Notes under the pieces: generated by a model | The model's database searches: none | Told to the model about the DNA's origin: nothing | What the model saw: only the letters and a program-made list of their open reading frames with translations | Shown here: positions 26,750-35,980 of the stretch, piece after piece | Layout of the letters: each line of letters starts with the position of its first letter | How positions within the stretch are numbered: the stretch's first letter is position 1 | NCBI GenBank assembly: GCA_025359865.1 | Contig: JANYDH010000179.1 | Span: 1 to 36,007, forward strand | Length of the DNA: 36,007 nucleotides | DNA from: Actinomycetes bacterium | GTDB lineage: Bacteria > Actinomycetota > Acidimicrobiia > Acidimicrobiales > Ilumatobacteraceae | Direction of reading: 5' to 3' | Program-made: the position numbers and the translations under genes

Positions 26750-28123
26750 CTACATGACAATCGGCACGGCTGGGCCAACTCCACCGCCTGATGAGGTGGT
26801 GGTCCCGCCGGTGTCGACCAGATTGGTAACTGCCGCCGACTTGACCGCATCGCACGAGTCAAGGCCGTAGACGGCGTTCTCCGAGTCGAACGGTTTGGCA
26901 TCGATCGGTTCGGCTGCGCTGCCGCCGCTCTCGTCGCTTCCGACGCTTCCGACGCTTCCTGGAAACGTGGTGTCTTGCGGAAAGTCCACACCGCCGGGTG
27001 CGGCCGACAGCCCCTTGACAAGGGCGTCAACTACCGCATAGGTGGTGTCGAGGTCGGGCTCGGGATCACTCCCAGGCTTCGTCCGCGTGAAGCTGACCCC
27101 GAACGGTGGATCGTTTCCGAGCACGTAGACCGTGACGAGCGTGTCGAACACGGTGGCGAACGCCGGGGCGGGATAGCGGTCGTCGAGGTTTTCGATCTTT
27201 CCGCCGAACAGACCGATGCTCGTACGGATGTCGCGGGCGGCCGCTTCGGTGTCGCCATCGGCGAAGGCGACGGCGGCGATGCTCAACAGCGACTGGTCGC
27301 CGGTGTACCAGCCACAGCTGAGTTGCTTCGACACGTCGCCGTCGAAGGTTCCTCCGCCAAAACCGTTGGCGAAGTCGATGCCGTCAAGGGCCGCGATAGA
27401 CGTGAGACTCACCGTCAAGGCCATGTTGCACGGATCGAACGGGAGGCGCAGGTTGGCAAGCGGGTCGGTACCAGCCTCAACGGGGCCCGAGGTACCGGAG
27501 TCCGAGGTGCCGGAGTCCGAGTTGCCGGAGTTGTTATCGGCCTCGAGGTCGATGCCACAGGTGTCGAGGAACCACGCGTTGAAGCGCTTGAAGGATTCCC
27601 CGGTGTCTCCATTGCCGAGGGCATCGAATGCCGTCTTGCCTGCCTCGCTCGCCATGGTCGCCGGGAGGTCGTAGTCATGTGCAGCGAGCGCTGCGGCGAG
27701 GCCGCGGAATCCATCCACGATCGCGATGAAGTCAGCGGAGATTTCCGCGGGCATGGTTGGGGTCCAGGACTCGAGGCTGGCGATGAACGTGCCCATCGCG
27801 GCCTTGCGGTCCGACACCTCGACGCCCGGATCCATGATGCCGCCTAGCGCGTTGTCGATCCCACTGATGAGCGACGCAAGCCCGCACGGGTCACCGACGG
27901 TGGGGCCGCCACCCGGTGCGACCGTGGCGCTCTCGGTGATAACAGTGGAGCCGGTGTCAGCTACAACGCTGACTCCCGCAGCAGATGTCACCGGCGGCAC
28001 CGGGGCGTAGTTGGTTGGGTTCGTCCTTGCGGCGTCGCTTCCACATCCGGCAAGCAGCGCCGTGGTCAAAAGCAGCGTGGTCAACCGCACCGGCATCACC
28101 AGGGCCGAACGAGTCACGGTCAT
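26750..28123 (-). CDS. Large lipoprotein of unknown function
   Basis: 457 aa. Signal peptide with a canonical lipobox LLAGC (Cys27), then a Thr/Val/Pro-rich linker to about residue 75. No domain is recognised. The mature part has two blocks, GDPCGLASLISGIDNALGGIMDP... (helical, Ala-rich) and FDPCNMALTVSLTSIAALDGIDFANGF...SCGWYTGDQSLLSIAAVAFADGDTEAAARDIRTSI, each with spaced Cys, separated by a Gly/Ser/Asp/Asn linker (SGNSDSGTSDSGTSG). The second block resembles sensor-like lipoprotein domains of actinobacteria (DUF3558-like in general pattern), but I do not assert membership. The C-terminal tail is Gly/Ser/Thr-rich. A strong ribosome site AGGAGGT lies 7 nt before the ATG. The M1 aminopeptidase follows 73 bp downstream and is likely co-transcribed. 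Confidence 0.75.
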   Translation of the reverse strand: MTVTRSALVMPVRLTTLLLTTALLAGCGSDAARTNPTNYAPVPPVTSAAGVSVVADTGSTVITESATVAPGGGPTVGDPCGLASLISGIDNALGGIMDPGVEVSDRKAAMGTFIASLESWTPTMPAEISADFIAIVDGFRGLAAALAAHDYDLPATMASEAGKTAFDALGNGDTGESFKRFNAWFLDTCGIDLEADNNSGNSDSGTSDSGTSGPVEAGTDPLANLRLPFDPCNMALTVSLTSIAALDGIDFANGFGGGTFDGDVSKQLSCGWYTGDQSLLSIAAVAFADGDTEAAARDIRTSIGLFGGKIENLDDRYPAPAFATVFDTLVTVYVLGNDPPFGVSFTRTKPGSDPEPDLDTTYAVVDALVKGLSAAPGGVDFPQDTTFPGSVGSVGSDESGGSAAEPIDAKPFDSENAVYGLDSCDAVKSAAVTNLVDTGGTTTSSGGGVGPAVPIVM

Positions 28124-28437: not shown

Positions 28438-29490
28438 GTGAAGAGCACTCGTTTCGCTCATCGGCTGGTCTGCCTTGCGGCGGTGGCACTGATCGTCGAC
28501 GGGTGCTCCAGCAACGCTGCTGAGCCGGTCGACCATTCAACTGGATTCGAGACCATTGCGCCCACGACCGCTGTAACCACGACCGCTGTAACCACGACCA
28601 CCATTGACATCACCGTGCCGCCGACGTCAATGGTCGCGGCAAGCACGTCGGTGGCGCTGCCAGTTCCATCCGCCGATGCACTAGCCGACTGGCCGATCCC
28701 ACCCACCGAGGTACCCGACCTTGCCGAGGTGCCGATGCTCCTACCTACGGTGGCGGTGCCTGGCGCCACGTCGGCAACCCGAATCGAAGGCGCCGACGAC
28801 GTCCCATCCTTTGACAGCTACTCCCAGTTCTGGTTCGGCGAGGGACCCGGGGCCGCAGTGATGAACGTCGAGACCAACATCGATCAAACACCAACCGTGA
28901 ATGGTGAGGGCATCTCGTTGCCTCCGTGGGATCGTGCGCTCTTCGTGTCGATGACTGACGGCTACACGAACTTGTGGCTCGAAGACTCGTCTGGTTCGGT
29001 CAACATTTGGGCCCACGGTCTGAGCCGTGATGACGTCACCAAGGTCGCGTCATCGCTTGCGCGGCGCACCGATGGCCAACCCGGCTGGGATGTCGGCCAA
29101 CTCCCCACGGGGTTGACACCGACCCACGAGGGCTGGAGCCTCGGTGCCGCGTCGCGTTCGGTCGGCTGGGCGGGTGACGACGGAATCATTGCCGAGTTGT
29201 GGATCGCGCACGGTGTGCCCTCGGTATTCACCAGTCCCTGGTTCGAGGGCTCGACGCCGCGCCTGTTTGACATCAACGGCAGCACGGCGGTTGTCCTCGA
29301 ACTCGACGGACGCACAGCGGTTGTGTGGTCACCGGAGCCCGACGTAACGGTACGGTTCGGCTTGTACGGCACGCTCGACGATGCTGTCGAGATCGCCCGA
29401 AGCATCCGCAAGGTCGACGACGCCGTCTGGAAACAGGACACCACCCCTGACACCTCAGGCGTCGATGGCTGCAACAGCATGTTCTGCTGA
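28438..29490 (+). CDS. Lipoprotein of unknown function
   Basis: 350 aa. Signal peptide RLVCLAAVALIVDGC with Cys23 at the lipobox (VDGC; Asp at -2 is unusual), then a Thr-rich linker TTAVTTTAVTTTTIDITVPPTS to about residue 65. The rest is beta-rich with many Trp: FWFGEGPGAAVMNVET, TDGYTNLWLEDSSGSVNIWAHGLSRDDVTKVASSL and GSTAVVLELDGRTAVVWSPEPDVTVRFGLYGTLDDAVEIARSI. The motif of a helix after strands (DDVTKVASSL; DDAVEIARSI) appears twice, suggesting a two-repeat fold like other small sensory lipoproteins. No family recognised. It has its own leaderless-type promoter and is followed by a 230-bp gap containing a pseudogene relic. Confidence 0.75.
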   Translation: MKSTRFAHRLVCLAAVALIVDGCSSNAAEPVDHSTGFETIAPTTAVTTTAVTTTTIDITVPPTSMVAASTSVALPVPSADALADWPIPPTEVPDLAEVPMLLPTVAVPGATSATRIEGADDVPSFDSYSQFWFGEGPGAAVMNVETNIDQTPTVNGEGISLPPWDRALFVSMTDGYTNLWLEDSSGSVNIWAHGLSRDDVTKVASSLARRTDGQPGWDVGQLPTGLTPTHEGWSLGAASRSVGWAGDDGIIAELWIAHGVPSVFTSPWFEGSTPRLFDINGSTAVVLELDGRTAVVWSPEPDVTVRFGLYGTLDDAVEIARSIRKVDDAVWKQDTTPDTSGVDGCNSMFC

Positions 29491-30476: not shown

Positions 30477-31052
30477 CTACTCGACGGCGGCGGCGACAAG
30501 AAACTGGGGTGACGTTGCCCCCGCATCACCGAACACGCCGAGGTCGAATCGCAGCGGATCGCAGGCCAGCACCGTCAGCTCTCCCCATGAGGCGCTGGTC
30601 TGTGTGTCGAGCGTCAGCGGCCGGTCGATGCTGGCCGACCCAGCGTACGAGGTGCCGGCGACTACACGGATGACGCCAGCCGTGGACGGGTCGCCCGTTG
30701 CAGTGCCCGATGAGAACACCACCACCCCGGAATCAGGTTCCACGGCCACGGTCAGTGCACCGTCGGCAACGAACACGTCGGACGCAGCATTGTCGGTGAC
30801 GACAAAATCGATCACGATGCGGTCGTCCAAGATGTGCATCGTCGGCACTACCGAGATCCGGCTGGGGTCGAGTGCGACCGGCACCGTCGAGTCGGCGGGC
30901 TGTGACGAAGCCGTCACATCGGACTGAGCCGCCCCATCGCTCCGCCCGCACCCGGACAGCGCTGCGCTCGATACACCTAGTGCGCCGATCGTCAGCATGA
31001 TCGACATCGACATGAGCACAGGTCTGCGGGAGGTCCAGATCATCATCGACAT
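30477..31052 (-). CDS. Small lipoprotein of unknown function
   Basis: 191 aa. Signal peptide SMSIMLTIGALGVSSAALSGC with a good lipobox (LSGC, Cys35), a Ser/Thr/Asp linker, then a beta-rich mature domain (about 60-191): ISVVPTMHILDDRIVIDFVVTDNAASDVFVADGALTVAVEPDSGVVVFSSGTATGDPS and SWGELTVLACDPLRFDLGVFG. This has an immunoglobulin-like or jelly-roll feel; family unknown. The frame is open up to 31136 but the ATG at 31052 starts just before the signal sequence; an ATG at 31013 is also possible. Divergent from the lipoprotein at 31155 with about 100 bp between, and convergent with the 228-aa gene across the hairpin repeat. Confidence 0.72.
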   Translation of the reverse strand: MSMMIWTSRRPVLMSMSIMLTIGALGVSSAALSGCGRSDGAAQSDVTASSQPADSTVPVALDPSRISVVPTMHILDDRIVIDFVVTDNAASDVFVADGALTVAVEPDSGVVVFSSGTATGDPSTAGVIRVVAGTSYAGSASIDRPLTLDTQTSASWGELTVLACDPLRFDLGVFGDAGATSPQFLVAAAVE

Positions 31053-31154
31053 GTGACGAATGCGGACCCGGGATAGTTCCTCATCGGCACCAACAATCAA
31101 AGGACATTGCACATGATTGCGTGGCGACTTTGCCACGGTGTGGGAACATTGCCC

Positions 31155-32198
31155 ATGCGTCGTTTCTTGATCGTGGCCACATCGTTCAGTCTGCTTGCCG
31201 TTGGCTGCAGCAGCGATCTACAACCGTACGGTCAGCCGGCAACCACCGCACCCGAACCCGCACCCATCGCAATCGACACCACCGGGCCCGCAACGTCGAC
31301 CACGTCCGCGTCAACCACGACCTCGACTAGCACCACCTCGACCGCAGCCGTCAGTCGTAGCCCGATCATCCCCGAGGTGCTGTGCGTCGGCCAAACCAAC
31401 GGTGGCACCAACCGTCTCTCTGCCGAAACCAGTGTCTACTTCGCCTATTCCAACGCAGGGTCCTCCGCAGCAGTGGTCGATGCCGGGCCGGACAATGAAC
31501 TGACCAACGGCTACCCGGGTGACGAACCACTCGTGCCCACCGTGTTCGCCCCGGGCCGCGTGTCGCCTGCGTTCAGTTCCTACGTGCAAGAAGACGGCAC
31601 CGTACCCAGCTGGACGTTGCGCGGCCCGGACGGGGCAATGCGCAGCACCAAGATCAGCAAGGACACGCCGGAGTGCACCGAGGCGTTGTTGACGCCGACC
31701 TTGACCGACCCGCGCAGGCTCGACCTTGCGTTCTCCTACCACCCGAGCCCCGAGTTCTCGTTTCCCGTGAAGAAGATCGACCTCACCATCACCGTCATCG
31801 GTGCCGGACAGAAGAGTCTGTGCGCCGAGGGACTCGAGCCCGAAGCGCCGGTGGTGTGGTTCGAGAACTCCGAGAGCGGAACGACACCCGGGGCCACGTT
31901 CAACCAGACCCTCACGGTGAAGGACGCCGTCAACGCAACGACCGGGGAGCCGTCCCTTGTTGCTAGTACCTCGGTAGCGGCACACCTCGTCGATATCTGC
32001 GGCGCTCAAGATTCGACATCAGAGTCGTGGCCCGACAGCGGCACCGTGGCACCCATCGAGGACGGCGTCCAGGTCTGCATTCGTTTGGTCGACAACAAGC
32101 TCTCCTTGGAACTACGCCCGGTTAACTCAGGCTGCGAAGACGTCCTCGCCCTCCCGGCAACTGGAGGCGTAAAGACTCGCTCTACCCTGGGGTTCTGA
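31155..32198 (+). CDS. Lipoprotein with C-terminal LPATG, coupled to cyclase-like gene
   Basis: 347 aa. Signal peptide MRRFLIVATSFSLLAVGC with lipobox AVGC (Cys18), then a linker rich in Thr, Pro, Ala and Ser to about residue 68. The mature part is beta-rich with conserved-looking Cys (about C77, C177, C220, C279, C305, C328) that could form disulfides: VLCVGQTNGGTNRLSAETSVYFAYSN, PSPEFSFPVKKIDLTITVIGAGQKSLCAEG. No family recognised. The end reads LPATGGVKTRSTLGF: an LPxTG sortase motif (333-337) without the hydrophobic anchor that should follow. An ATG at 31113 is an alternative start. The TGA overlaps the ATG of the giant cyclase-like gene (TGATG, 32196-32200), strong evidence for one operon and a linked job. 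Confidence 0.78.
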   Translation: MRRFLIVATSFSLLAVGCSSDLQPYGQPATTAPEPAPIAIDTTGPATSTTSASTTTSTSTTSTAAVSRSPIIPEVLCVGQTNGGTNRLSAETSVYFAYSNAGSSAAVVDAGPDNELTNGYPGDEPLVPTVFAPGRVSPAFSSYVQEDGTVPSWTLRGPDGAMRSTKISKDTPECTEALLTPTLTDPRRLDLAFSYHPSPEFSFPVKKIDLTITVIGAGQKSLCAEGLEPEAPVVWFENSESGTTPGATFNQTLTVKDAVNATTGEPSLVASTSVAAHLVDICGAQDSTSESWPDSGTVAPIEDGVQVCIRLVDNKLSLELRPVNSGCEDVLALPATGGVKTRSTLGF

Positions 32199-35100
32199 TG
32201 ACGTTGGACTACGCCAGCCGAGTCGCAACAGACTGGCTCGCCGCCGAGACTCCAGAGCCGTGGCGCGAGCTGGAAGGCACCGCGGTACTTGCCGACTTGA
32301 CCGGTTTCACGCGTTTGACCGAACGGCTCACGAGCCTCGGAGCAGAGGGTGCCGAGGTCTTGCACCGCGCCCTCACGTTGTGCTTTTCGACACTGCTCGG
32401 TGCGAGCATGACCCTCGGTGGCGACATCATCGGGTTTGCCGGCGATGCCGCCCTGGTGTGGTTCGATGGTGATGATCACGAGATCCGCGCGATCGAGTCG
32501 GCGTGCGCGATGTCCACCAGTCTGGGCAGGTTGCCAGCCGCGGTCACCGGCGGCAAGCGACTGCGAGCCAGCGTCGGCGTCCACACTGGGACGATGACGG
32601 CGATGCTGGTCGGTTCACCGCAGCGGGCACTGTTTCTCTGCGGACCAGAGATCTCGACCCTGGTCACGCTTGAAGCAGCCGCTGGGCCGGGCCAGGTCGT
32701 TGCTAGCGCATCGCTTGCAGACCGGCTGCCGCCATCATGGCGCGGCCCGGACATCGGACCGGGAGTGTTGGTCACGCGACGCGGTCGCCCACGGGCGGCT
32801 GCGGTCACACCATTCGCCACCCGAATCGTCCACGCGGATGATGCCGACCCAACCCACACCGAGCGAATGCTTTCGCTGCTCAGCCCTGCCGTGCGCGAGT
32901 TGATGACAACCGATATCCCCATGGGCGACCACCGTGCCGCAGCGATTGGTTTTGTAGCCGTACCGGGAATCGACACGATGCTCATGGCGGACGGGCCTGA
33001 TGCTGTTCACCGAGCGCTCGACCTCGTCGCGACCACCGTCGGGCGGATCGCCGGTGAACTGTCGGTGGCCTGGCTCGACACCGACGTTGGTGTCAACAGC
33101 GTCAAACTGATGCTCACCGCCGGATCGCCGCAGGCGGTCGACGACGACGAAGGCCGCCTGCTGCTTGCGCTGCGCCGGATCCTCGACGAATCCGATGTGG
33201 CTCTGCGGGCCGGTGCCCAGCGCGGGCGGGTGTTCTCGGGAGCGCTCGGGGTGTCCGGACGGCGCACGTTCACCGTGCTCGGCGACCCGGTCAACGTGGC
33301 GGCGAGGGCACTCGGGTTCGCCGCCGACCGGGAGTTGATCGCCGGTGACGGGCTGGGCGTGGCAGACCGGCCATCCGTAACCGCCGTGGGGCTTGGCGCA
33401 AAGACGTTGAAGAATCGTGTCCGACCCGTTGAGATGTGGCGGGTCACTGCTGTACACGCCCCAGCGGAGTTCGTCGGCGGTTCACGGTCTACGCCGATGA
33501 GCAGCGGCAGGGTTGCCGAACGTGAACGGATCGCTGCGGCGTGGAAGCGTACATTCGAAGGAGTCGGTGCCTCGCTGTCGATCGTCGGGGATCCCGGTAT
33601 GGGCGCGTCGGATCTCCTCGCAGAAGCGGCTGACCGAGCCGGACCAGCAGCCACCTTGGTGGTAGCCGACCCCTACCGGACGCAGATCCCCTACGGCACG
33701 GTCACAACGATCGTGCGCTCGTTGGCGCTGGCAGCGGGGGCTGGCGACGCCGACCAAGGCTGGCCGTGGCTCGCTTCGTTCGGAACGCAACCTGCAGCGA
33801 ACGACGACCACCCCGTCGACCACCCTGTCGACCACATCGCCGAGTGGCTCGACGATGGTCGTCGAGCACTTCAGCAACAACCCCGCGACGAAGAGGTCGA
33901 CCCGGCCACCACAGCCCGTCGCGCTCGTGCCGTGCTCGTCGCACTGATCGAGGCAGCCGCCCCCAACTCGTGGCTGCTCGCCATCGATGACCTCGATGCA
34001 GTCGATGATGCATCACGATTGGTGCTCAGTGAGCTTCGCGCGATGACACACCGGCACGAGTGGCTACTGCTCACGAGTAGCAGCCTCAGTGGTATCTCGC
34101 TCGCCGCGGATGCCGATCCATCCACGGTGATCACGCTCGACCCGTTCGAAGATGGGGAAGCGACGCAGTTCGTCATCGAGATCGAGCCCAGGTTGCGAGA
34201 CGACCAGGTCGCCCGAATTGTCGCTGCCGGCAAGGGCAACCCATTCGTGCTCTCCGAACTCGCGCGTCATCCCCAAGGAGGAGAGCTGCCCGATTCGCTT
34301 GACCGCCTCGGGGCGGCACGGGTCGACGCATTGCCGGTCGCGACACGACGATTGGTACGCGATGTTGCAACGTTCGGCACGACGATCTCGCTGGCAACCA
34401 TTGCCGACGTACTGGGTCGTGACGACCTGGCAGATCCCGATGCGTGGACCGATGCCGCCTCAGTGCTCCGACCAGCGGGACCTGGACTGATTGCGTTCCG
34501 GCACGACGCATACCGAATCGCTGCCCACACGTCGCTGCCGTTCCAGCGACGCCGCGAACTGCACGGGTTGATCGCCGACCACCTCGCAAGGCAGCCGGGT
34601 CACAGCCACGCGGTGCTTGCACGCCACTACGAGGAGGCTGGCCGAACACGTGAGGCGTTCCCGCTTGCGGTTAACGCTGGCCGAGCCGCGGCCTGCGCTG
34701 GCGCGCTCGTTGAGGCCAGCGATCTCATCGGCATGGCGGTTCGGCTGGCGCGTGACGTCGACCGCCCTGCACTCGGCAGCCTGCTGGTCGAACAAGGCCG
34801 GATCTTGACAATGCTGGGAGACTTTCCGGGCGCCGAGCGGGCGTTGAGCGCAGCGGGACGCGCACTCCGCGACCCGGTCGGCTACTCGGAGATGTGCAGT
34901 GAGCGGGCCAGTCTGGCGATTCGGCGCAGTCAGTACCGACAGGCACGGTCTTGGTCGCGCAAGGGACTCTCGGTCACCGATCCGCTCGCTTGCGATGCTG
35001 TCGAAATCCGGTGCAAGCTGTTACTCGACGATGCCGCCGCGCTGTACTTCACGGGACGATACGCGCAGAGCCTCCGCCTGGCGGCCCAGGCATTGTCCGC

Positions 35101-35980
35101 CGCCGAACTCGCCGGGAACGATCTGCTGCAAGGCCGCGCCCATCTCCATCTCGAGATGGCCCACAGCGTGTTACCGAATTCCGGGGCACGCAAGCACGCC
35201 GATGAGGCGATCCGCATCTTCGAATCAATCGGCCACGATCGACTTCTCGGCGCTGCGTTGGTCAACAGCGGACTCTCGGCCATGCATGCCGGTGATTGGG
35301 ATGATGCATTGCTGCGCTACCGGCGCGCAGCCATCGTCATCGCCCGAACTGGTGACGTTGCCGACGCAGCGATCGTGCTGTTGAACGAAGGATTTCTCCT
35401 GTTGCGACAGGGACGAACCGCACAGGCCGACGCACTCGGCATCCGAGCGATGCGCGCCTTCGACAACATCGAAATGGAGATTCATGGTGCCTACGCGCGT
35501 CACCTGCGCAGTCGGATCGCGGCGGTCGAACGCAGATTCGACGTGGCCGAGGAGCTGATGGCTGCCTCGCGTGCCGCGTTCGCACGTCTGGGCGATCGGG
35601 CGATGGTGATCGACTGCGATGTGGCGTCGATCGACCGGCTACTGCGCGAGGGTCGTCCGCCCGAGGCGCTGGCGTTTGCTCGGTCGATCGAGTCAGCAAT
35701 CAGCGGCGCAGAAGGAGGCATCGACGATTCCTACGCACTGCTGCGAGGCATCGCCGAGGCCCGAACCGATGATGCCGCACATGGCGTGGCCCGAGTGCTC
35801 GATGCCCTTCGCTCCGCTCGCGAACGACACCTGAAGTACGACGAGTACCTGTGCCTCACCGCGCTCATCGAGATCGAACAAGCAGGCGGTCCCGCAGCGC
35901 CACCCAACGCTCGATTCGAGCGCGACGCCATCACCGCGGCCCTCGGCCTCGTCCTCGAACCATTACCCCACCTACCGTGA
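32198..35980 (+). CDS. Class III cyclase-like / STAND ATPase / TPR multidomain protein
   Basis: 1260 aa. Residues about 25-185 form a class III adenylate/guanylate cyclase homology domain: LADLTGFTRLTERL (first metal Asp33) and GGDIIGFAGDAALVWF (second metal site GD, 82-83), then SVGVHTG. A second cyclase-like half (about 248-375) lacks the DxxGFT motif but keeps VLGDPVNVAARAL. Next comes an AAA_16/STAND-type NTPase (about 440-800) with SIVGDPGMGASDLL (464-475), where the Walker A lysine is replaced (GMGAS in place of GxGKS), and Walker B WLLAIDDLD. The C-terminal 450 residues are helical TPR-like repeats (ARHYEEAGRTREAFPLAVNAG..., ALLRYRRAAIVIARTGDVADAAIVLLNEG). Proteins of this plan combine cyclase homology with an ATPase and TPR scaffold; many are poorly characterised. 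Coupled to a lipoprotein by TGATG. The stop codon is followed by the hairpin repeat. Confidence 0.88.
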   Translation: MTLDYASRVATDWLAAETPEPWRELEGTAVLADLTGFTRLTERLTSLGAEGAEVLHRALTLCFSTLLGASMTLGGDIIGFAGDAALVWFDGDDHEIRAIESACAMSTSLGRLPAAVTGGKRLRASVGVHTGTMTAMLVGSPQRALFLCGPEISTLVTLEAAAGPGQVVASASLADRLPPSWRGPDIGPGVLVTRRGRPRAAAVTPFATRIVHADDADPTHTERMLSLLSPAVRELMTTDIPMGDHRAAAIGFVAVPGIDTMLMADGPDAVHRALDLVATTVGRIAGELSVAWLDTDVGVNSVKLMLTAGSPQAVDDDEGRLLLALRRILDESDVALRAGAQRGRVFSGALGVSGRRTFTVLGDPVNVAARALGFAADRELIAGDGLGVADRPSVTAVGLGAKTLKNRVRPVEMWRVTAVHAPAEFVGGSRSTPMSSGRVAERERIAAAWKRTFEGVGASLSIVGDPGMGASDLLAEAADRAGPAATLVVADPYRTQIPYGTVTTIVRSLALAAGAGDADQGWPWLASFGTQPAANDDHPVDHPVDHIAEWLDDGRRALQQQPRDEEVDPATTARRARAVLVALIEAAAPNSWLLAIDDLDAVDDASRLVLSELRAMTHRHEWLLLTSSSLSGISLAADADPSTVITLDPFEDGEATQFVIEIEPRLRDDQVARIVAAGKGNPFVLSELARHPQGGELPDSLDRLGAARVDALPVATRRLVRDVATFGTTISLATIADVLGRDDLADPDAWTDAASVLRPAGPGLIAFRHDAYRIAAHTSLPFQRRRELHGLIADHLARQPGHSHAVLARHYEEAGRTREAFPLAVNAGRAAACAGALVEASDLIGMAVRLARDVDRPALGSLLVEQGRILTMLGDFPGAERALSAAGRALRDPVGYSEMCSERASLAIRRSQYRQARSWSRKGLSVTDPLACDAVEIRCKLLLDDAAALYFTGRYAQSLRLAAQALSAAELAGNDLLQGRAHLHLEMAHSVLPNSGARKHADEAIRIFESIGHDRLLGAALVNSGLSAMHAGDWDDALLRYRRAAIVIARTGDVADAAIVLLNEGFLLLRQGRTAQADALGIRAMRAFDNIEMEIHGAYARHLRSRIAAVERRFDVAEELMAASRAAFARLGDRAMVIDCDVASIDRLLREGRPPEALAFARSIESAISGAEGGIDDSYALLRGIAEARTDDAAHGVARVLDALRSARERHLKYDEYLCLTALIEIEQAGGPAAPPNARFERDAITAALGLVLEPLPHLP

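Follow-up and report, generated by a model that had tools for sequence, protein, structure and literature searches.

The window analysed here is an entire contig of 36,007 bases from a member of the Ilumatobacteraceae (JANYDH010000179.1). At its right end, both on the + strand, lie a gene for a putative lipoprotein of 347 amino acids (31155..32198) and a gene for a giant protein of 1260 amino acids (32198..35980). The giant is of the soluble adenylyl cyclase (sAC) type, a kind of protein that is already known; what is new is the clade to which it belongs, which is coupled to a lipoprotein and has lost the Walker A lysine of its NTPase domain. In our preferred interpretation, to which we give a probability of roughly 45%, the two genes form one operon encoding an active sAC-type cyclase that no longer uses the ATP switch of its STAND domain, with the lipoprotein itself, its precursor or a membrane relay as client or input. 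The role of the STAND/P-loop region of sAC is unsolved: a 2025 study of full-length mammalian sAC tried nucleotides and found no regulator specific to the full-length form (PMC12802110). Because the window clade has kept its cyclase residues and the whole NTPase-TPR region, has lost the P-loop lysine, and has what appears to be a dedicated lipoprotein partner, it can serve as a test of the STAND switch, and a clean natural one when set against its lysine-bearing relatives. The interest is moderate, as the pair is rare and its function is inferred from sequence. Among the open-licence papers surveyed, mostly at title level, no title concerned such a lipoprotein-giant pair or the neighbourhood pattern described below.

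The earlier note on this DNA had described the giant as two cyclase halves joined to a degenerate NTPase and TPRs, and Pfam bears this out, as the sequence does each other point of its description that was compared. Guanylate_cyc is matched in two stretches (best at residues 30-177, E 1.1e-7), followed by an AAA_16/STAND-type NTPase (33506..34042, residues 437-615, E 3.9e-12) and TPR_12 (35252..35461, residues 1019-1088, E 3.5e-7), the only TPR model above the Pfam cut-off. The Walker A motif survives as the remnant GDPGMGAS (33587..33610, residues 464-471), in which Ala470 replaces the lysine. The best PDB sequence match is human ADCY10 (E 2.1e-8); the first half is clear, and the stretch in the second half is weak (i-Evalue about 8) but falls on the expected motif. 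From these pairings and the model described next, the first cyclase half, C1, is placed at 32198..32797 (about residues 1-200) and the second, C2, at 32927..33457 (about residues 244-420), all of these features being on the + strand.

Residues 1-725 were modelled with AlphaFold2 from an alignment of 74 giants (mean pLDDT 87.6). Residues 1-420 of the model match the sAC catalytic core with a Foldseek E of 8.9e-23 (to 4clp), and VIA-align to 4clw gives Z 41.4 and a root-mean-square deviation (rmsd) of 2.5 over 399 aligned residues at 16-18% identity. Pfam and the model agree on two tandem cyclase domains in one chain, in the pseudo-heterodimer fold of sAC/ADCY10-type class III cyclases. Since both sequence and model match ADCY10, the C1-C2-NTPase-TPR architecture is that of sAC and not a new composition; the idea that no named system has this layout has to be given up, the giant being of ADCY10 type with relatives across Actinobacteria and Chloroflexota. 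Like human sAC (crystal structures 4clf, 4clw and others), the giant has a tandem C1-C2 core in a single chain and conserved metal-binding Asp pair, Thr, Asn and Arg; PMC12802110 also describes for sAC a predicted STAND domain with a P-loop, and a long C-terminal region follows, as in the giant. Unlike sAC, the giant is bacterial and shares an operon with a lipoprotein; its P-loop lysine is gone and Gly stands in place of Lys95, besides the low core identity given above. The actinobacterial and chloroflexotal giants share the length class and domain span of the window giant, but differ from its clade in keeping the Walker A lysine (all 70 that were aligned) and in lacking the lipoprotein among the loci compared. 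The window giant is the only one of its type found in its own genome (one match at E 1e-20), where two other cyclase-domain proteins (L002, L005) have an intact Walker A behind the cyclase motif.

Catalytic and switch residues were compared in alignment A5, a sample of the best-scoring relatives that holds 74 of 79 extracted giants, four from the window clade and 70 others; it omits two duplicates (L083, L117) and three giants cut by contig ends (L118, L122, L123). The metal-binding residues Asp33 (32294-32296) and Asp83 (32444-32446) pair with sAC D47 and D99 and are kept in 74/74 giants. Thr359, Asn366 (33293-33295) and Arg370 (33305-33307) pair, within the weak second stretch, with sAC T405, N412 and R416; Arg370 is likewise kept in 74/74, and Asn366 in 71/74. 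All five residues, whose roles in sAC are taken from PMC12250328 and PMC12867704, are kept in 4/4 giants of the window clade. With the cyclase residues kept, a nucleotide second messenger as the output, which the earlier note had envisaged, is plausible. As a side observation, the giants of L086, L088 and L103 have Ala for the catalytic C2 Asn (GDTAALAAR) and may form a pseudo-cyclase subgroup.

The switch residues follow another pattern. Position 470, the Walker A lysine, is A, S, A and A in the window clade and K in 70/70 others (Fisher P 8.7e-7, uncorrected for relatedness), and the acidic Walker B pair DD at 597-598 is present in 4/4 clade giants. In a midpoint-rooted tree the four giants are monophyletic (support 1.0); their stem measures 1.01 substitutions per site, their root-to-tip distances are 1.81-1.95 versus a median of 1.43, and their sisters are the giants of L041 and L062 (support 0.917). 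In alignment A4 the giant of L057 begins one codon late. Parsimony suggests a single loss of the P-loop lysine, at the base of the window clade, with the cyclase residues kept, and the NTPase of this clade probably cannot use an ADP/ATP switch. STAND proteins with a TPR sensor, such as MalT, resemble the giant in that a sensor is attached to an NTPase core (the sensor being of TPR type in PMC6468293; also PMC4381067); they are reported to need an ADP-to-ATP switch, whereas the giant has probably lost it and has a cyclase as its effector. Inspection by eye showed, next to the sister giants of L041 and L062, a divergent gene that is truncated by the contig end and whose start resembles a signal peptide.

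The stop codon of the lipoprotein gene overlaps the start codon of the giant gene in the sequence TGATG (32196..32200, + strand), base 32198 being common to both open reading frames (ORFs). This overlap, already pointed out in the earlier note, is the same in all four known pairs. A search of 221 genomes of the family, that of the window included, detected the lipoprotein in four: the window's own, and G024, G223 and G228, at 33-36% identity. These four also have giants at 44-50% identity, and the next giants are at 27-35%. The two genes are adjacent with the TGATG overlap in 4/4 genomes, which span three genera, so the pair is not confined to one strain. Because they are adjacent, co-occur and share the same overlap in every case, we regard lipoprotein and giant as a conserved unit. 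When the bases of the giant gene were shuffled 200 times, no stop-free stretch exceeded 454 codons, and the giant ORF is therefore not a product of chance. The conserved overlap, the co-occurrence and this shuffle test lead us to reject the idea that the two genes are neighbours by accident or were created by faulty ORF calling.

GGGG lies 5 bases before the giant start in the window, and in G223 and G228 no purine-rich Shine-Dalgarno-like run occurs within 12 bases of the start; G228 has AGGA 13 bases ahead of it. The missing run in these two genomes fits translation of the giant by termination-reinitiation after the lipoprotein. The contig ends 27 bases past the giant stop, and a third operon gene could therefore lie out of view.

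Outside the family the lipoprotein is scarce. Profile searches of samples from the order (397 genomes), the class (395 genomes) and the phylum (396 genomes) recovered it at full length in the window and, for the order and class, also in G024, with no other full-length member. Partial matches occurred in 44 further genomes of the 397 in the order (E 1e-4) and in one of the class, together with two weak single-sequence matches. A widespread lipoprotein is rejected, as the other matches end by about profile position 114 and cover the signal peptide, the linker and, at the furthest, the beginning of the first domain. Up to five candidates per genome were scored in the order, class and phylum, nine for the lipoprotein and three for the giant in the family; G223 and G228 are not among the order, class and phylum matches, and rare members of the lipoprotein family could be missed.

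The lipoprotein begins MRRFLIVATSFSLLAVGC, a signal peptide with the lipobox LAVGC as judged by eye. The lipobox cysteine, Cys18 (codon 31206-31208), is invariant in 4/4 aligned lipoproteins (alignment A3, in which the sequence of L058 begins inside its signal peptide). The protein should be lipidated and located outside the membrane. A linker rich in Ser, Thr and Pro spans about residues 19-70, and an AlphaFold2 model from four sequences (mean pLDDT 65.6) contains two predicted β-sandwich domains, at about residues 69-169 and 184-322. No Pfam or NCBIfam match was found at E 1 or better, a further search giving noise at E 2.7-2.8, and a four-sequence profile had no PDB sequence match at E 10. 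A known fold was also rejected: the best Foldseek match, growth hormone receptor at E 1.5e-2, falls short of the 0.001 threshold, and the best VIA-align match (Z 7.1, rmsd 2.4, 76 residues) is weak and below the level that the notes of the tool call telling. The fold matches, weak as they are, are mostly immunoglobulin (Ig)/FN3-like. The most suitable reading is an envelope lipoprotein with two Ig-like domains, where 'Ig-like' describes the predicted model and is not a family assignment.

Our preferred interpretation combines these elements as follows. Lipoprotein and giant would be co-transcribed as one operon, with translation of the giant probably coupled to that of the lipoprotein. C1 and C2 would fold into one pseudo-heterodimeric active site, most likely making cyclic AMP (cAMP), and the STAND-type NTPase, without its Walker A lysine, would no longer cycle. 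The TPR region may bind a protein input, most likely one connected with the co-encoded lipoprotein. The lipoprotein, anchored on the outer side of the membrane with a flexible linker leading to its two predicted Ig-like domains, would be the dedicated partner, and its state (export, or an occupancy relayed by a membrane protein) would set the cyclase output through the TPR region.

A topological obstacle stands in the way of this scheme: the lipoprotein should be outside and the giant inside, and the giant shows no evident membrane-spanning segment (the highest hydropathy mean over 19 residues is 1.74, no dedicated predictor having been run). Three explanations, namely a bridging membrane protein, reading of the precursor before export, and co-regulation only, cannot be separated by sequence. 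A precedent for the direction of the signal is the actinobacterial GlnH-GlnX-PknG system, in which a TPR-bearing signalling enzyme of the cytoplasm is reported to be under the control of an extracytoplasmic binding protein (PMC9769921, PMC8546545, PMC6069109). There, however, the transmembrane protein GlnX forms the bridge, while none was seen shared beside our pairs, and the enzyme is a kinase and not a cyclase.

Other observations also weigh against the interpretation that we favour. Bacterial operons commonly contain one-base TGATG overlaps, so the overlap alone shows no functional link. The pair is rare, at 4/221 genomes of the family, and none of the four other searched members of the window's genus has it. 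The visible genes flanking the pair differ among the four genomes, in a comparison limited by contig ends on the downstream side of the window and the upstream side of G024. No cNMP_binding-like gene lies beside the four pairs, contig ends again cutting the window and G024. Within the cyclase, the equivalent of sAC Lys95 (Gly79) is G, A, G and G in the clade and Lys in 65/70 others, the C2 lysine at position 303 is Ser in one of the four giants, and sAC Lys334, which takes part in base recognition in C2, lies outside the alignment with the giant, so that its equivalent could not be placed. The equivalent of sAC Arg176 could likewise not be placed, and sAC Lys144 pairs with Ser125 of the giant, this lysine not being kept. 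Given the loss of the Lys95 equivalent, at least one canonical feature of sAC activation is gone in the window clade. Lys95 belongs to the bicarbonate site of sAC, which is a regulatory and not a fold-defining feature; SssAC, one of two other animal sACs tabulated in PMC12867704, has Asn at this position.

The strongest alternative, although we consider it somewhat unlikely, is that the operon serves co-regulation or stoichiometry only: the cyclase would be set by a cytoplasmic cue and the lipoprotein would act in the envelope or in adhesion, with neither contact nor signal between them. The lack of an evident route across the membrane is in keeping with this. So is the finding that relatives of the giant adjoin many unrelated kinds of secreted protein in several orientations, a pattern that points to cAMP and surface proteins as a common theme and not to one fixed complex. 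It is harder to reconcile with one lipoprotein family being tied to one giant clade, with a conserved overlap, in 4/4 cases. Alternatively, the giant could be a pseudo-enzyme scaffold with a dead NTPase and an inactive or very weak cyclase, acting by protein binding. The loss of both the Walker A lysine and the Lys95 equivalent in 4/4, the Ser at position 303 in one of the four and the long root-to-tip distances of the clade all speak for such a protein, but over this divergence a dead cyclase should have lost some of its metal aspartates, adenine-site threonine and catalytic Asn and Arg, and these are kept in 4/4; we think a scaffold improbable. A slimmer chance still attaches to the specific form of our interpretation in which control has passed from the STAND switch to a lipoprotein encoded on the same mRNA, the TPR region reads the unexported lipoprotein precursor in the cytoplasm and the cyclase reports lipoprotein export or envelope demand as cAMP. 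Least likely, in our view, is a constitutively released cyclase whose control went with the P-loop lysine, leaving expression alone to determine its output. In favour of this, the specific activity of mammalian sAC is about 3-fold higher when it is truncated than at full length, a difference that depends on sequences including the P-loop-like region (PMC12802110), and STAND proteins rest in a closed, ADP-bound state (PMC6468293) that the window clade may be unable to form, but the NTPase and TPR regions of the four giants are full-length and well conserved, which would be unexpected without a remaining role.

The wider group of sAC-type giants is large. A genome scan confirmed at least 403 stretches, and the best 80 loci are mostly from Actinobacteria and Chloroflexota. 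Excluding L075 and L076, which match the G024 and G223 contigs in length and position, leaves 78 named loci. These relatives are 22-36% identical to the giant over the best segment, and most uncut cases match from the cyclase into the TPR part; the 62/78 that are uncut have a median length of 1288 amino acids (range 963-1541). An all-against-all comparison of neighbouring genes (E 1e-4) found the lipoprotein of the window pair in no locus outside the clade among 104 loci, a set that includes two overlapping pairs (L066/L083 and L072/L117).

Genes adjoining these giants often encode secreted proteins. For the 78 named giants outside the window clade, 43/72 adjoining genes of at least 350 amino acids were called secreted, versus 39/191 genes in these loci that do not adjoin the giant (Fisher P 4.4e-9). 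Gene calling used a custom score of ORF and GC position, and secretion was assigned with a custom rule, alike for neighbours and controls, with genes open at the contig start excluded; the false-positive level of the rule is indicated by 4/75 giants being called secreted. Pfam identified four very large secreted neighbours (2186-2445 amino acids, at L059, L065, L068 and L074) as two Big_13-type Ig-like proteins, one with HYR and one with PD40, and four smaller ones as one DUF642, one sub-threshold SdrD_B and two without a match. Very large ORFs of about 2100-2600 amino acids often stand beside lysine-bearing giants, in several orientations (L059, L060, L063, L064, L065, L066, L068, L073, L074, L098, L103 and L125).

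Genes resembling cNMP_binding are also enriched, with 31 in 26/104 loci versus about 1.9 expected. The model was built from four Pfam-confirmed seeds and the other 27 genes are model matches only; the expected number derives from Pfam searches of the genomes of four relatives, not those of most loci. Examples are L139:794-1147, L086:10626-11045, L131:12672-13091 and L154:12668-13411, some of them within larger proteins, and the window's own genome has nine PF00027 matches. The enrichment supports a cyclic-nucleotide output for the wider giant group and does not indicate what passes between the partners. The repeated adjacency to genes for secreted and cNMP-binding proteins suggests a tie between bacterial sAC-type cyclases and the cell surface. 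A metallo-β-lactamase-fold gene occurs near 16/104 giant loci (15 distinct contigs), among them L066, L074, L092, L099, L111, L114, L123, L126 and L134, and Pfam confirms Lactamase_B_2 at L111 and L126; such a gene could encode a cyclic-nucleotide phosphodiesterase.

Some minor features complete the description. The loci L069, L071 and L095 have neighbouring ORFs of tandem repeats, of the PLSAIPLSAID or PIASLPIASL type. Upstream of the pair, the window contains three more lipoprotein-like genes, none of them with a Pfam match (26750-28123, - strand; 28438-29490, + strand; 30477-31136, - strand); the last is divergent from the pair. At L057 (G223:C242) a second lipoprotein-like ORF of about 710 amino acids opens directly after the giant stop, with pentapeptide repeats above and BNR below the Pfam cut-off.

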